NCBI GenBank assembly: GCA_017303935.1
Contig: JAFLBD010000001.1
Coordinates: forward strand, 558,001 to 622,000
Direction of reading: 5' to 3'
Origin: Armatimonadota bacterium
Lineage (GTDB): Bacteria > Armatimonadota > Fimbriimonadia > Fimbriimonadales > Fimbriimonadaceae
Length of the DNA: 64,000 bases
Position 1 is the first letter of the stretch. Every line of letters starts with the position of its first letter. Under the pieces are notes generated by a model, which had not been told where the DNA came from, did not search any database, and worked only from the letters and a program-made list of their open reading frames with translations. A program made the position numbers and the translations under genes. Positions 23,233-31,979 of this stretch are shown piece after piece.

Positions 23233-23567
23233 CAAAAAATGGGCCGGAATAAGCAATTCCGGCCCTAGCGATGAGGAATGTTTTCCCGAGCAATATTGCG
23301 ATTGACTCATCAGGATTGTCGTTTCATTATCGAAGCTAATCCCGGCCGTAGGCTAAAGTCTGATTTTTGTCGCAAGTGCCTAAGCCAGAAGGCACATTGC
23401 ATCAAACTCTGCTTCCTTTTTCCGTGATCTGCTCAAGAAGAGGGAGGGTGAGAATCATTTGATACAGCAATTTTCATGAAGTTTTTCTCACCGTGTGGAT
23501 GGCATGATGAATTTTGCGAGCGGCCAGCAGTAGTCCACCATTTGCGCTAGACTACAACAAGTACTTC
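23233..23567 (+). promoter_or_regulatory. 335-bp leader region of the sigma/CHAT/subtilase operon
   Basis: No gene was seen. Three structures stand out. A hairpin lies at 23241-23265. A second hairpin lies at 23372-23400, built from GCAAGTGCCT and AGGCACATTGC. An 8-bp inverted repeat GGTGAGAA (23447-23454) / TTCTCACC (23485-23492) has a 30-nt centre and lies about 75 bp before the sigma-factor start. The last could be an operator. I could not assign a standard promoter; an ECF-type autoregulated promoter is possible. Confidence 0.45.
23241..23265 (-). terminator. hairpin with T tract on the minus strand
   Basis: A 10-bp perfect stem (GGGCCGGAAT / ATTCCGGCCC) with a 5-nt loop, 8 nt after the AHSA1 stop. 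On the plus strand the T tract is absent; on the minus strand it is followed by ATTTTTTG. It would therefore stop leftward transcripts better than rightward ones. Confidence 0.5.
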
Positions 23568-24206
23568 ATGGCATGGCTCGAACCTGAAACCGCACACATT
23601 CTGCTGAAAAGGGCAGGGCGCGGCGATACGCGTGCCTGGGAACAAATCGTTCGAAGCTATTCAAACTTGGTCTATTCGGTAGCACGCCAAGCGGGTCTCT
23701 CCCGCGAAGATTCTGAAGATGTCTATCAAGCGACTTTTATCGCCCTCCACAAGAATCTAGATCGAATCGAGCATGGGAGTCGGCTCAGCAGGTGGTTGGT
23801 CGTTACGGCTGGGCGCGAATCGGTGCGCATCTCTCGGCTACAACGCCGTACCACCAGTTCCGACGAAACTACAGAACTGCTAGAAGAGGTCATCCACCAA
23901 GATGAGCAAGCCACCGAGGCATTGATCCTGGATGGAATGCAATACGAAGCCGCATTTGCTGGATTTGAAGCACTGGATGAGCGATGCCGAAAGCTGCTTT
24001 CCGCCATCTTTTCGGACCATCCCACTTCATACGAGCAGATCTCTTCGGAACTCAACATCCCGCTCGGATCGATCGGTCCTACAAGAGCGAGATGCATCGA
24101 GAGCTTACGCAAAATTCTGCAAAAGAATCACTTTTTTGAGGAGGATGTATCAAGACGCCGTGGGCGAAACTCTATGAGGAGGAACTATGTTCAATCGCCC
24201 AAATGA
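23568..24206 (+). CDS. ECF-like sigma-70 family sigma factor
   Basis: About 212 aa from the ATG at 23568; the frame also opens at TTG 23514. Region 2 is seen in WEQIVRSYSNLVYSVARQAGLSREDSEDVYQATFIALHKNLDRI and the following WLVVTAGRESVRISRLQRR. Region 4 is FEALDERCRKLLSAIFSDHPTSYEQISSELNIPLGSIGPTRARCIESLRKIL, including the GSIGPTRARC recognition helix typical of the ECF groups that sit beside CHAT and protease genes. No anti-sigma factor with a zinc finger or membrane segment is adjacent. Its end overlaps the next gene by 20 bp. Confidence 0.9.
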   Translation: MAWLEPETAHILLKRAGRGDTRAWEQIVRSYSNLVYSVARQAGLSREDSEDVYQATFIALHKNLDRIEHGSRLSRWLVVTAGRESVRISRLQRRTTSSDETTELLEEVIHQDEQATEALILDGMQYEAAFAGFEALDERCRKLLSAIFSDHPTSYEQISSELNIPLGSIGPTRARCIESLRKILQKNHFFEEDVSRRRGRNSMRRNYVQSPK

Positions 24207-24720
24207 TCGCTTGGTTTCTATGGTAGAGGTTGCTCTGAACGAGCAGCCGATCTCAGTGTTGGGGAACGTTTCGCCAGCTGAACAACAACGGCTTGCTGGT
24301 TTGGGTGAGATTTGCCAGTTTCTACAACAACGCTTCGATACTCCGAGTGCCGACGCCTTGAACCGTGCAATCGGTACGATGATCGGTGGCCAGCGGGTGG
24401 CTCGCTGGGTCAAACCAATTGCCCCCAAATTGGCATTACAAGCTCGTTCTGCGTCTGAACAGCATTCTTTCAGCTTCGAAGACGAGGGGGTCAAGCTCCG
24501 GCTGGTCTACACACCGCTCCCGTTGGGCTGGGAAATCGTAGGCAAAGTGACCCCTGCAGATTCCTGTGTCTCCATCGACGATCAATCCATTGAAGTCGAA
24601 GCTTCAGGGCATTTTCGCTCGGAAGTTCGCGATCTTAACCATCCAGAACTCGTAATTAGCCGGCTCGATCAGCGAATTGAGGTAGCGAACGGGAGGCAAC
24701 TCCTCGATAATGCCGACTGA
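24187..24720 (+). CDS. orphan protein of the sigma/CHAT operon
   Basis: A 177-aa soluble protein with an ideal Shine-Dalgarno sequence (AGGAGGAACT before ATG) lying inside the end of the sigma gene. I do not recognise a database family. The first about 85 residues are helical and Gln/Ala-rich. The second half, from LRLVYTPLPLGWEIVGKV through VSIDDQSIEVEASGHFRSEVRDLN, looks like a beta-sandwich with an E-x-x-G-x-F turn reminiscent of carboxypeptidase-regulatory-like domains. It could be a regulator of the sigma factor or a CHAT substrate; both are inference. Its end overlaps the CHAT gene by 11 bp. Confidence 0.85.
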   Translation: MFNRPNDRLVSMVEVALNEQPISVLGNVSPAEQQRLAGLGEICQFLQQRFDTPSADALNRAIGTMIGGQRVARWVKPIAPKLALQARSASEQHSFSFEDEGVKLRLVYTPLPLGWEIVGKVTPADSCVSIDDQSIEVEASGHFRSEVRDLNHPELVISRLDQRIEVANGRQLLDNAD

Positions 24721-27304
24721 TCAAACCATAAAGAGGATTTTTGCGGCAAGCAGCCTTGCCGCGGCCCGAAAGTTGGTTCGGCAATCCGCTAGCCCGGAAT
24801 TCGCAAACGCAGCCTTTTCGGCACTTCTCGCTGAACTCGGCACAAAGCCGCAAAGGGCGAAGCTACTCGCAGATGCACTTTCCGAACTGCGATCCATTTC
24901 AGGGCTTCAGCACTTCGGTCATCGCGCGCGAGCAATTTCACTGCGGTTGCAAGGGAAGTGGTTGGCGAGTGTCCCCGAGTTCGAGAAGGCTGGCGAATTT
25001 GCGCCTGCCGATCTCGGCGCACTTTTTTCGGTAGGTGCCATTGATTCTTTGGCGCGGGCGGGTCGGACTAACCAGGCAACCAAGTATGGGGCAAATCTTT
25101 ACGAAAGATCGCTGGGCGGATCGGAAATCGGCTCCGGGCGAGTCGCGTTGAACACTGGTCATGCCTTTTCTTGGTACGACAACAATCTGCAAGCGGCAAA
25201 ATGGTACGAACGAGCGATCGCTCATTTTCGTGCTGCAGATTCAAAAGTGGATCTGGCTCAAGCACTTGTAGGGAAGTCGACGAGCTTGCTTGGCACCGAT
25301 TCTAGCGAGGCCATTTTCGAGGTTACGCGAGAGGCGATCAGCCTGTTTGAAGAGGCGGAGATGCCGTACTATGCCTCAATTGCCAGAATGAATCTCGCGG
25401 CGGCAGAGCGTCTTCGGGGAAATCTCGATGTCGCCCTCAGTGAACTGCTGAAGATCAAATTTCAATTTGACCGTGAAGACGAAGAAGCGTTTCGAGTTCT
25501 TCACGACCTTGCCGCGGTTTACGCCGCGCTCAACCTCCATGCAGAGGCCGAAGACTGCGCGCTGGAAGCACTCTCACTCCCTTGGGCAAAGGCAATGCCG
25601 GTACACCGTGGAGGATGTTGGCAAGAGATCGCGACAGCTCGCATCAACCAAGGCAATCTCCGCGAAGCGAAATCCGCTCTTTCAACGGCTAGAAGAATCT
25701 ATTCCGAGTACGGTGATCCGGTCTGGGTCGCTGAGGTCAACCGTATTGGTTTATCGCTCAAGACGAAATGGTCCAAGTCGGATTGGGCTTGCGCGGAAGA
25801 CGGAATCGCAGTAATCCAAAAAAAGCGACTCTCAAAGCTCATTGCGCCGCACTTTGTGCTGATGGCGGAGCGTGGCGATGTGCGGTCACTTCGCGCGCTT
25901 GGCAAGCTGAAAGACAGCAGCGAAGAGTGGAAGTTCCATTTACTATCGTCGCAGAGGGTAACTGGCGCAAAGAAAAGGCAATCTCAAGAACGAATGCTCG
26001 ATTCCATCTGGCAAGACCGGCTGAAGCTCCAAAGCCGAGTTTCGCTGATGAGCTACCTCGATGACAAAGTTGATGCAATCCAATCAGTCGTCGCAGATCG
26101 ACTATCGGAAGGAACGGAACAAGCGACGAAAGAAGCGATTCAAATCATCGTACAAGCTCGATCCATCGCGCTAGTTGACGAAGTCTTGCGCGCGAACAGT
26201 TCCCACGACCAAGAGATATTGTCTGAGCTCGAAAATCTAAGGGCCGAATTCGCAAAGGAAGCTGGTCCGGATGCAACGGAAGGAAAGCGTAAAGGCGTTA
26301 CGCTCGCCAGCAACGCCAATTTGCAACGGCGCTGGACCGAGGCCAGCATGCGGCTCGAATCCGTGTTGATTCCACGGTTCGAACTCCAGAGCCTGGATTC
26401 CACCGCGATCTATCTGGAAGCAAGGAACGATCTGTTTCAAATCTGCAATGGAACGGCCGCTAGGCTCAAGATCACAAAAGAACAACTGACCCAGAGGCTT
26501 CGCTGGCTCCACTTTGAACTTGGTGCTCCAGGACTCGGTTCGGAACCAGACCATTCAGCGCTATGTGAGATGATCGCTGAGTTGCAGGACTTGCTTCAAC
26601 TGAACCAGAATATCCACCAGATCGCTCCCGAAGGGATTTTCTGGAGTGTGCCATGGCAAGCACTTTGTCAAGACCATTTGGTGGGACACATTCTCTTGCC
26701 AGGGCGATCCGAATCCAGCGATACCGTGCTCAAGCAAGGCCGTGTCGTGATCTGGGTGCAAATGACTGACGAATTGCCACACGTCCGGGCGGAGCTTGAA
26801 GGATTGCTAGAAGTTTATCCAGATGCAGAAGTGTGCACGTCCGTGGCGCAAGCTCGGGATAGCCTGAACAATTCGGAGCCGATTCGAGCGCTTCATGTCG
26901 CGGCTCACGGGCACTATCGGCCCGCAAACCCGATGCTCTCTTCGATTGAATTTGAAGACGGCGAGCTGTTTGCAGCAGAAATTTCGCGCAGTCCTGCGCA
27001 AGTTGATTTGGCGGTGTTGGCAGCATGCCACTCGGGCGCACTCAGTACGGCCCACCGATTTGAACCCAACGGTCTTTGCAGAGCATTTTTGGCGCTAGGC
27101 GCGAAAAGTGTTTTCGCAGGTCAATGGGCGGTGGACGATCAAACTGCGCCTTTGTGGACGACTGTGTTTCACAAACAGCTCAAAAATGGGAAATCCGCCG
27201 TATACTGTGCACAAAGCGCGCAGAATGCAGTGAAAGCGGTCCGGCCGCACCCTTATTTTTGGGCATCGATTATTGAGTTCCGAGGATATATAAGTCAGAA
27301 ATGA
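24710..27304 (+). CDS. TPR-repeat CHAT (caspase-like) protein
   Basis: An 864-aa cytoplasmic protein without a signal peptide. Residues from about 70 to 380 are helical tetratricopeptide-type repeats (for example AKWYERAIAHFRA, AEDCALEALSLPW). A middle helical region follows, and the last about 200 residues form a CHAT domain, a clan CD cysteine peptidase fold related to caspases. The catalytic dyad is intact: H733 in LHVAAHGHYRP and C773 in LAVLAACHSG. The usual downstream motifs are also present: GLCRAFLALGAKSVFAGQWAVDD and PYFWASIIEFRG. TPRs probably sense a protein partner. Coupled by overlap to both neighbours. Confidence 0.93.
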   Translation: MPTDQTIKRIFAASSLAAARKLVRQSASPEFANAAFSALLAELGTKPQRAKLLADALSELRSISGLQHFGHRARAISLRLQGKWLASVPEFEKAGEFAPADLGALFSVGAIDSLARAGRTNQATKYGANLYERSLGGSEIGSGRVALNTGHAFSWYDNNLQAAKWYERAIAHFRAADSKVDLAQALVGKSTSLLGTDSSEAIFEVTREAISLFEEAEMPYYASIARMNLAAAERLRGNLDVALSELLKIKFQFDREDEEAFRVLHDLAAVYAALNLHAEAEDCALEALSLPWAKAMPVHRGGCWQEIATARINQGNLREAKSALSTARRIYSEYGDPVWVAEVNRIGLSLKTKWSKSDWACAEDGIAVIQKKRLSKLIAPHFVLMAERGDVRSLRALGKLKDSSEEWKFHLLSSQRVTGAKKRQSQERMLDSIWQDRLKLQSRVSLMSYLDDKVDAIQSVVADRLSEGTEQATKEAIQIIVQARSIALVDEVLRANSSHDQEILSELENLRAEFAKEAGPDATEGKRKGVTLASNANLQRRWTEASMRLESVLIPRFELQSLDSTAIYLEARNDLFQICNGTAARLKITKEQLTQRLRWLHFELGAPGLGSEPDHSALCEMIAELQDLLQLNQNIHQIAPEGIFWSVPWQALCQDHLVGHILLPGRSESSDTVLKQGRVVIWVQMTDELPHVRAELEGLLEVYPDAEVCTSVAQARDSLNNSEPIRALHVAAHGHYRPANPMLSSIEFEDGELFAAEISRSPAQVDLAVLAACHSGALSTAHRFEPNGLCRAFLALGAKSVFAGQWAVDDQTAPLWTTVFHKQLKNGKSAVYCAQSAQNAVKAVRPHPYFWASIIEFRGYISQK

Positions 27305-28497
27305 AGAATAGGATTGTCACCGCAGCACTGATGACCATCGCGACGAGCCAGTTCGCGTTTGGTGCCGGGAGCGTGATTGCTCGGCTTAGGCCGAACGTAG
27401 ATGAAGAGCAAGTGAAAATTGCACTTGGCTTGGGAATCGAGGATTCAACCCCGTTCGATCGATTCATATTGATCGAAGTTCCCGACACCTTCTGCGTCGA
27501 GAATGTCGAGGCGATGCTTGAAAATTTGAACCTTGCCGAATGGGCGACCGAGCAATGCGATATGTGCTCCCCAGGGCACAGTGAGGCACCCAAGAGCCAG
27601 GGCAGACTCGGTGGAAAGATCGCGGCTGTCTTTGGCAGTGCAGTCATGAACGAGCTGAACTCGACTCTCATGCAGCAGATTCGATATCAGTACACCCCGT
27701 TCACTTCATCGCAGCGAACTGTCCGGGTTGGCGTTCTTGATACAGGATTTTCTTCCCAATTTCCAAAGCTTTCAACCAGATTCGCCGCTAGCTACAACGC
27801 ATTTAACGGTGAGCATCGAGCGATTGACCAGCCAGAGCGAGTGGATTCGAATGGAAGTGGTACCTACGATGACGCGGTCGGCCACGGCACATTTGTGACC
27901 GGTTTGATTTTGGCTCTAGCTCCAAACGCGTCTATTGTCAACGTCAAAGTCGCGGATGCGGATGGAATTGCAACTTCTTGGTCCATCATCAAGGGGCTTA
28001 CATTTGCGAAAGCAAACGGCTGTGAAATCGTGAATCTCAGCTTCGGTTCGCTGGACGAAATTCCAGGTCTGGACAAAATGATCGACTGGTGCGATGAAAA
28101 CGGGATCACTGTTGTTGCACCGAGTGGGAATGACGCGCTTTCGAGACTGCTTTATCCTGCAAAAGAGGATAAGGTGATTTCTGTCGGGAGTGTTGACTCC
28201 AAAGATCGCAAATCTCCTTGGAGTAACTTCAGCAGTCGGTTGAAATTCTCTGCCCCAGGCGAAAACCTGGTCAGCACGTTCTGGGATGGTGACTTGGTGT
28301 CTTGGTCTGGAACTTCGTTCGCCAACGCCGTGGTCACCGGTGTGATCGCTGATCGAATGCGTTCGCTTCCGGTCCAGTCGTCACAAAACCTGCGACGATT
28401 CTTGTACCGACGTGGCGTCAACATCAATCCAGTTAATCCGAACTTCATTGATAAAGTTGGAGTTCGAATCGACTGGCCGCTGATGAATCAGCGCTAG
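27301..28497 (+). CDS. exported subtilisin-like serine protease (S8)
   Basis: A 398-aa protein with an N-terminal signal peptide (cleavage probably after QFAFGA), a prodomain-like region of about 100 residues, and an S8 catalytic domain. The triad is intact: D147 in VGVLDTGFSS, H195 in GHGTFVTG and S339 in WSGTSFANAVVTG. The prodomain contains an unusual CDMC pair preceding the catalytic domain. It starts inside the CHAT stop codon (ATGA), so the two proteases are made together although one is cytoplasmic and this one exported. Fourth and last gene of the operon. Confidence 0.94.
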   Translation: MKNRIVTAALMTIATSQFAFGAGSVIARLRPNVDEEQVKIALGLGIEDSTPFDRFILIEVPDTFCVENVEAMLENLNLAEWATEQCDMCSPGHSEAPKSQGRLGGKIAAVFGSAVMNELNSTLMQQIRYQYTPFTSSQRTVRVGVLDTGFSSQFPKLSTRFAASYNAFNGEHRAIDQPERVDSNGSGTYDDAVGHGTFVTGLILALAPNASIVNVKVADADGIATSWSIIKGLTFAKANGCEIVNLSFGSLDEIPGLDKMIDWCDENGITVVAPSGNDALSRLLYPAKEDKVISVGSVDSKDRKSPWSNFSSRLKFSAPGENLVSTFWDGDLVSWSGTSFANAVVTGVIADRMRSLPVQSSQNLRRFLYRRGVNINPVNPNFIDKVGVRIDWPLMNQR

Positions 28498-31008: not shown

Positions 31009-31061
31009 ATGTACGATCATTTTGCTGGGGCATCCTTTAGCCCTGGGTTGTGAGAATTGCA

Positions 31062-31979
31062 ATGAAATTTCGACTAATTACGTTAGCGTTAGGATTGAGT
31101 GTTTGTGGGTTGGCCTTTGCCGATCCAAGTTTCACCCGAAGTCACGGCGACACACTTTCTGCTCTCAAGAGCGATGCCGGGCTCGCTTGGACAGAAACCA
31201 AGTACGGCGTGAACTTCTACAAGGCGGCGACCGACCCAACCTTGTTCATAAATGCCATCAACTTTATCCCGGGCGTGTCGTGGGACCCGAATATCAATCT
31301 GAATACATCGACTTTCTTTTACGGTGATTTGGGTAGCGGATATTCCGGGCACACCTACGAATTGGGAACCGCAATCAATGGCGAAGCGAACTGGAATTTT
31401 GATGGAATCCTGCGGCGAAGCGGCGTTGTCAACAGCTCGGTGAATGCCGGACTGTACGATTTTCGGGTGGAGATTATTGGCGGGAACAGCGATACCGCAG
31501 AGGACGTTCTCGCATCCTTTGATAACTTCATCGAAGTTATTCCTTCGCTGACGGCCGAAGCGACGGCCACGATGAGTCCGGCTGCAATTGGTCCAAATCA
31601 AATCAGCCAGGCTTCTGTTGAATTCCACAATTCGAGCAATCGCGACATCAAAACAACGACTTGGTATGTCGCAGGATTTGGGCTCGGTGACCCAGGAAAT
31701 TCAGACCAGTTGGTCCTAGACAACTTCATCGGTAACTGGTTCAACCAGACCATCACTCCGAGTTCCAGCCGTCAAGACCTTCACTCCAGTTGGAAGGCAA
31801 CTCCGTCCAACGCTCCTGGTATCTACCAGGGCAATCTCGGCATCATCGGCGGAGCCTACGAAGGAGACTGGCATGGATGGAAGGCTTCCGGTTCTAGTCT
31901 CGAAGTGGTTCCAGAGCCTGCAACGATGCTAGCAGTTGGCTTGGGTATTGCTGGATTGTTGCGAAGGCGGCGAGCTTAG
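31062..31979 (+). CDS. PEP-CTERM sorting-domain exported protein
   Basis: About 305 aa with an N-terminal signal peptide (LITLALGLSVCGLAFA) and a C-terminal PEP-CTERM tripartite signal: VPEPATM, a hydrophobic helix, and a terminal RRRR cluster. Such proteins are processed by an exosortase and directed to the cell surface or exopolysaccharide. The mature region is Asn/Ser/Gly-rich and beta-like, with no known domain. No exosortase gene is in the window. The ATG at 31062 is preferred over the GTG at 31050. Confidence 0.88.
   Translation: MKFRLITLALGLSVCGLAFADPSFTRSHGDTLSALKSDAGLAWTETKYGVNFYKAATDPTLFINAINFIPGVSWDPNINLNTSTFFYGDLGSGYSGHTYELGTAINGEANWNFDGILRRSGVVNSSVNAGLYDFRVEIIGGNSDTAEDVLASFDNFIEVIPSLTAEATATMSPAAIGPNQISQASVEFHNSSNRDIKTTTWYVAGFGLGDPGNSDQLVLDNFIGNWFNQTITPSSSRQDLHSSWKATPSNAPGIYQGNLGIIGGAYEGDWHGWKASGSSLEVVPEPATMLAVGLGIAGLLRRRRA

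Follow-up and report, generated by a model that had tools for sequence, protein, structure and literature searches.

Layout of the four-gene locus

Four genes lie on the forward strand of the window (the whole stretch of 64,000 nucleotides that was analysed), in the order sigma factor, orphan, TPR-CHAT protease and subtilase, with successive ORF overlaps of 20, 11 and 4 bp. The first (23568-24206, +) encodes an ECF-type sigma factor of 212 aa, which matches Sigma70_r2 in Pfam (E=4e-10) and TIGR02937 (2e-20), and whose orthologs conserve a GSIGPTRARC motif. The second (24187-24720, +) encodes a protein of 177 aa that matched no Pfam family, here called the orphan, with the codon of its Arg87 at 24445-24447 (+). 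The third (24710-27304, +) and fourth (27301-28497, +) encode a TPR-CHAT protease of 864 aa and a subtilase (S8) of 398 aa. A re-check of the ORFs bore out the coordinates and overlaps of the preliminary description. Two promoter-like elements accompany these genes: TGTATCA-N15-CCCTCTT, located upstream of the sigma gene on the reverse strand (23438-23466, -) and reading away from it, and TGTATCA-N15-AACTCTA, located at the sigma-orphan junction (24146-24174, +) and ending 12 bp before the orphan ATG.

The CHAT domain of the third gene product scored 81 bits against a Pfam cut-off of 24 (E=1e-22), while TPR_12 was found just under its cut-off (E=3e-6). The structural model of this protein (pLDDT 88.6) shows helical repeats, and its top fold matches were Csx29 (Z 23.8) and separases (Z 22-23), with gingipains lower; the CHAT profile and the fold search also retrieved DdvA. 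The His733/Cys773 dyad is present in 58/58 complete copies of the protein, and none of the copies has a strongly hydrophobic N-terminus. By sequence and model the protein is a member of the TPR-CHAT family of clan CD, with predicted proteolytic activity, and its gene is the only CHAT gene of the window genome (2.56 Mb, 99% complete).

The subtilase contains a Peptidase_S8 domain (E=3e-31), aligns to subtilisin with a propeptide-like region, and has the triad D147/H195/S339, which is found in all complete copies. A signal-peptide-like stretch is present at the N-terminus of the Armatimonadota subtilases, so that export is predicted. Both the intact catalytic residues and the different N-termini of the two proteases, as first described for the window, extend to the copies from the rest of the phylum. 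The L090 and L093 subtilases carry a lipobox-like LALxGCGG at the N-terminus and may be lipoprotein-anchored. No signal peptide was seen in the subtilase of the actinomycete Nonomuraea (L098:992-2047), and this Actinomycetota copy may act in the cytoplasm. Elsewhere in the window (31050-31979) is a gene for an exported protein ending in VPEPATMLAVGLGIAGLLRRRRA, which we take to be a PEP-CTERM-like sorting signal.

Conservation of the gene set and of the promoter-like element

Of 291 Armatimonadota genomes, 53 have the same gene types together, at 58 loci in all and in two arrangements; the count refers to the fetched stretches and includes the window. All four genes are present in about 48 of the 58 loci. 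Several of the remaining loci end at contig ends, a few have their sigma gene elsewhere, and no subtilase was seen at the L094 and L096 loci. When the orphan alone was searched against 113 class genomes, it or weak relatives turned up in ten. Ten further class loci have sigma, orphan and CHAT genes in the window order (10/10), and at first pass the subtilase was found in nine of them, the tenth being on a contig that ends early. A CHAT profile run over the 291 genomes of the phylum yielded 38 additional stretches and a later orphan-profile search nine more. A second subfamily (L134-L142) has the order sigma-CHAT-orphan-subtilase, and its orphans are zinc-less. One CHAT frame (L140:4808-6446) is split into two overlapping ORFs, which could be an assembly frameshift or a decaying copy.

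A search for related loci with a single CHAT sequence found nothing, while the CHAT alignment retrieved seven, most of them labelled Armatimonadota. Among the CHAT matches on plasmids, only that of Nonomuraea (L098) had a sigma factor and a subtilase of the family alongside, which were not seen next to the matches from Azospirillum, Paraburkholderia, Bradyrhizobium, Streptomyces and Nostoc. The Nonomuraea locus shows a third order, subtilase-sigma-orphan-CHAT, and its orphan matches the family profile weakly (6.4 bits). Phage records yielded a single, partial match to CHAT. The association of the four gene types is far above chance, and the occurrence of the same four parts in three orders speaks for a functional unit and against a frozen neighbourhood. 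The preliminary description would have been refuted by a gene order restricted to close relatives, and this outcome was not observed: the module is spread over several Armatimonadota families and reaches an actinomycete. Its distribution is patchy: the profile search found no orphan in the remaining four genomes from the genus.

Scanning for fixed promoter words gave a weak signal, but a two-block search succeeded, recovering upstream of the sigma gene in the class loci a motif with a score of 108, against 51 for shuffled sequences, whose reverse reading is TGTATCA-N15-nnCTCTT. Of 28 class loci, 27 have the junction element, read in the direction of the orphan, at >=9/12 matches (6% of random windows), and it mostly ends 11-15 bp before the orphan ATG, whether or not it falls within sigma-coding DNA. 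It was also detected in 8/15 loci of the distant group (4% background) and in 0/9 of the second subfamily. The 2.56 Mb window genome contains a single exact match, that upstream of the sigma gene, and six sites with a single mismatch, one of which is the sigma-orphan junction; the total equals that of a reversed-pattern control, giving no sign of a wider regulon. On the plus strand the upstream copy reads AAGAGGG-N15-TGATACA and resembles an extended -10 site directed towards sigma, so this copy may act in either direction.

By its position, the junction element is probably a promoter recognised by the locus sigma factor, and as such it would drive the orphan, CHAT and subtilase genes in a sigma-dependent manner. 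The four genes had been regarded as being made together. Their overlaps are real, but a conserved promoter-like element precedes the orphan, and the sigma gene and the other three may also be transcribed separately.

Other genes were observed around the sigma gene in related loci. In eleven relatives (L013, L014, L016, L017, L020, L021, L022, L061, L073, L074 and L075) a small exported protein of ~125 aa, with no Pfam family, is encoded divergently to sigma, and in several of these its gene faces a copy of the promoter-like element; this gene was not found in the window genome. When the distant loci were searched for a sensor encoded between the sigma and orphan genes, only a lipoprotein was found, in two of them (L080:3447-4991 and L084:9353-10819); it starts with 'GVFVTDD...GYDKVWA', and a lipoprotein resembling it is encoded divergently next to sigma in the class loci L065 and L070.

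The orphan protein and its linker arginine

A profile built from 46 orphans was compared with all PDB sequences, and the sole match with E < 0.01 was the anti-sigma domain of RsiW (E=2.4e-4, positions 6-71). Across the phylum, the first 70 profile positions also match canonical anti-sigmas from the same genomes (L144-L147), whose genes immediately follow those of ECF sigmas and whose zinc motif is intact. Many orphan orthologs start with an HxxxCxxC or Hx4CxxC motif; the zinc ligands are kept in 26 of 57 family members, six members match zf-HC2 weakly (best 1e-3), and three members weakly match CarboxypepD_reg. The window orphan has no zf-HC2 match, and its ligand columns hold N27/S29/E32, so that the zinc ligands are absent. 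In some orphans, little of the N-terminal helical domain is left.

The AlphaFold model of the orphan (pLDDT 87.5) consists of four helices (residues 6-66), a low-confidence linker (about 67-92) and a beta domain (93-166). A fold search, which covered mainly residues 88-175, gave generic beta sandwiches with a best Z of 6.8 and no specific fold match for the beta domain. No transmembrane-like hydropathy was found in the orphan or its orthologs by a crude measure that also left one canonical anti-sigma below threshold; the orphan appears soluble.

Judged by these profile matches, the orphan is a member of the ZAS anti-sigma family, represented in the window by a copy without zinc ligands. The statement that no classical anti-sigma lies beside the sigma gene was therefore wrong at the family level, while the accompanying suggestion that the orphan fills this role looks right, given the RsiW match, the zf-HC2 matches of orthologs and the match to canonical anti-sigmas. 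Very probably, it is the anti-sigma factor of the locus sigma.

Arg87 is the only invariant residue across the 46 orphans and is located in the low-confidence linker. It is present in 57/57 copies, including those of the second subfamily and of Nonomuraea, usually flanked as aliphatic-R-(G/S/A). Such a solitary invariant residue, placed in a flexible linker that joins a putative sigma-binding domain to another domain and encoded beside a protease gene, suggests a cut site. The invariant arginine and the analogy with Csx30, the sigma inhibitor cut by Csx29, make it somewhat more likely than not that the CHAT protein cuts the orphan, and the earlier proposal of the orphan as a CHAT substrate looks right on the same basis. 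Cleavage precisely at Arg87 is a more tentative proposition, one that we hold as possible.

E695 is invariant in the locus CHAT proteins, but it is also common among CHAT domains in general and is not diagnostic. Arg is the favoured P1 residue of clan CD proteases such as gingipain R, MALT1 and separase (PMC4626109), and the P1-Arg-binding residue of separase, D2151, corresponds to Lys670 in Csx29 (PMC9729208). In alignments of the locus CHAT proteins the equivalent column is non-acidic, and Arg specificity by analogy with D2151 is not claimed. Since this column is non-acidic and Csx29 does not cut after Arg, Arg87 may instead serve docking or structure.

A proposed signalling circuit and its relation to known systems

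In the CRISPR-associated CASP/Craspase system, Csx29 cuts the sigma inhibitor Csx30 and thereby relieves CASP-sigma (PMC10028731; PMC9729208). The locus described here resembles this system (Csx29-Csx30-CASP-sigma/RpoE) in that the gene for a TPR-CHAT protein of the same fold (Z 23.8) has those of an ECF sigma factor and its putative inhibitor as neighbours, cutting of the inhibitor being the known feature of Craspase (PMC10028731, PMC9729208). We consider it somewhat more probable than not that the locus forms a self-contained sigma/anti-sigma/protease circuit, in which CHAT cuts the orphan to free sigma. At rest, the soluble orphan would use its N-terminal helical domain to keep the ECF sigma inactive. 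A cytoplasmic cue or partner, sensed by the TPR superhelix, would then activate the CHAT dyad, and the protease would cleave the flexible linker of the orphan, most likely beside Arg87, so that the sigma-binding and beta domains come apart. The freed sigma would transcribe the orphan, CHAT and subtilase genes from the junction promoter, with the orphan providing negative feedback, CHAT providing gain and the subtilase acting as the exported output. After cutting in Craspase, sigma still carries the N-terminal piece of Csx30 (PMC9729208), so cleavage alone may not release sigma, and the N-terminal piece of the orphan may need to be degraded further.

The module had been proposed as a two-protease signalling circuit for regulated proteolysis or for cell death or stress, with its own transcription factor. 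Linkage of the four genes across the phylum supports a regulated-proteolysis circuit that has a sigma factor of its own, but nothing found here speaks for cell death, and the two-protease part is only half supported, because the predicted exported subtilase is more simply read as the output of the circuit than as a second signalling step.

Other readings of the same genes were weighed. Genes for CHAT, subtilase and carboxypeptidase proteins occur alongside ECF54 sigmas, for which a review proposes proteolytic control without an anti-sigma (PMC8999054). Were the locus sigma ECF54-like in this sense, the proteases would degrade it to keep it inactive and the orphan would be an adaptor or scaffold of CHAT, a role in keeping with those orphans that lack most of the helical domain. 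We regard this as unlikely, since the orphan profile matches an anti-sigma domain and canonical anti-sigmas in the same genomes, and the subtilase is predicted to be exported, away from sigma. Catalysis itself could be dispensable for the switch: TPR superhelices bind proteins, and Csx30 docks on the CHAT part of Csx29 in the active and the inactive state of the protease alike (PMC10028731), so that TPR-CHAT might bind the orphan beta domain and either remove the orphan from sigma or stabilise the complex, with cleavage directed at another target such as a cell component. Arg87 could then be a docking residue, the separase P1-Arg pocket not being conserved in the locus CHAT proteins. The presence of His733/Cys773 in every complete copy points to catalysis under selection, however, and Arg87 lies in the low-confidence linker and not in the beta domain; a non-proteolytic switch of this kind seems quite unlikely to us.

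An anti-phage or cell-death module, with CHAT as executioner protease and the subtilase as toxic effector, is highly improbable. Although CHAT and subtilase proteins are known from defence systems, and weak PADLOC matches were obtained (BovA, 1e-6, and a 'subtilase' model, 7e-21), these matches are at the domain level, the subtilase resembles an ordinary secreted protease with a propeptide, phage records contained only the partial CHAT match, and the window genome has no Cas1 or RAMP gene.

The preferred reading, release of sigma by cleavage of the orphan, differs in several respects from the CASP arm of type III-E systems. Neither Cas1 nor RAMP proteins (Cas7-11/gRAMP) were matched in the 99% complete window genome, in which the controls were matched, so the locus occurs in a genome without Cas7-11 and CRISPR genes. 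The orphan has 177 aa and is ZAS-derived, unlike Csx30, whose published structure includes residues up to 560, and Csx30 was not among the sequence matches of the orphan or its fold matches (again mainly for residues 88-175). In addition, a predicted exported subtilase belongs to the four-gene set.

The likeness to the ECF54 sigmas of Actinobacteria, which have CHAT and subtilase genes beside them (PMC8999054), is one of gene context. The Nonomuraea locus (L098), with its sigma, orphan, CHAT and subtilase genes together, fits that context, but its gene order differs and its subtilase has no signal peptide. ECF54 was described without an anti-sigma, whereas the third component of the locus, encoded by the gene after sigma in the window, is here identified as one. 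The weak CarboxypepD_reg match of three orphans may explain the 'carboxypeptidase' label given to an ECF54 neighbour.

Anti-sigma function and a CHAT domain are also combined in DdvA of Myxococcus xanthus (PDB 8rot/8rw5), whose PDB name is that of a transmembrane anti-sigma factor. DdvA, a natural link between the two functions, is one transmembrane protein, while the anti-sigma and CHAT parts of the locus are predicted to be separate soluble proteins. As proposed for the locus, proteolysis of anti-sigmas such as RsiW and RseA frees an ECF sigma, and among solved structures the orphan family is nearest in sequence to the RsiW domain. Anti-sigmas of the RsiW/RseA type are membrane-spanning substrates of membrane-associated proteases; in the orphan no span was detected, and CHAT is predicted to be cytoplasmic.

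Given the ECF54 context (PMC8999054), the association of sigma, CHAT and subtilase genes is not new. In the literature searched there is no record of the Armatimonadota-wide set, the ZAS-derived third gene, the linker Arg or the junction element. A more doubtful idea is that of a CRISPR-free form of signalling, in which a separase-like TPR-CHAT protein activates sigma through cleavage, at the invariant linker Arg, of an anti-sigma that is soluble and in many cases zinc-less; this would be the widespread form, seen in Armatimonadota and in the ECF54 context, and the CASP arm would be a version captured by CRISPR.

TPR-CHAT proteases are best understood alongside CRISPR or gasdermins, and the locus represents a small chromosomal version free of CRISPR. 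It comes with a named candidate substrate, one predicted site of cleavage and a promoter-like element of known position, and with these parts the idea that CHAT proteases activate sigma factors by cutting anti-sigmas becomes directly testable. The orphan family could also provide the missing anti-sigma of ECF54-type loci, which have been described as having none (PMC8999054).
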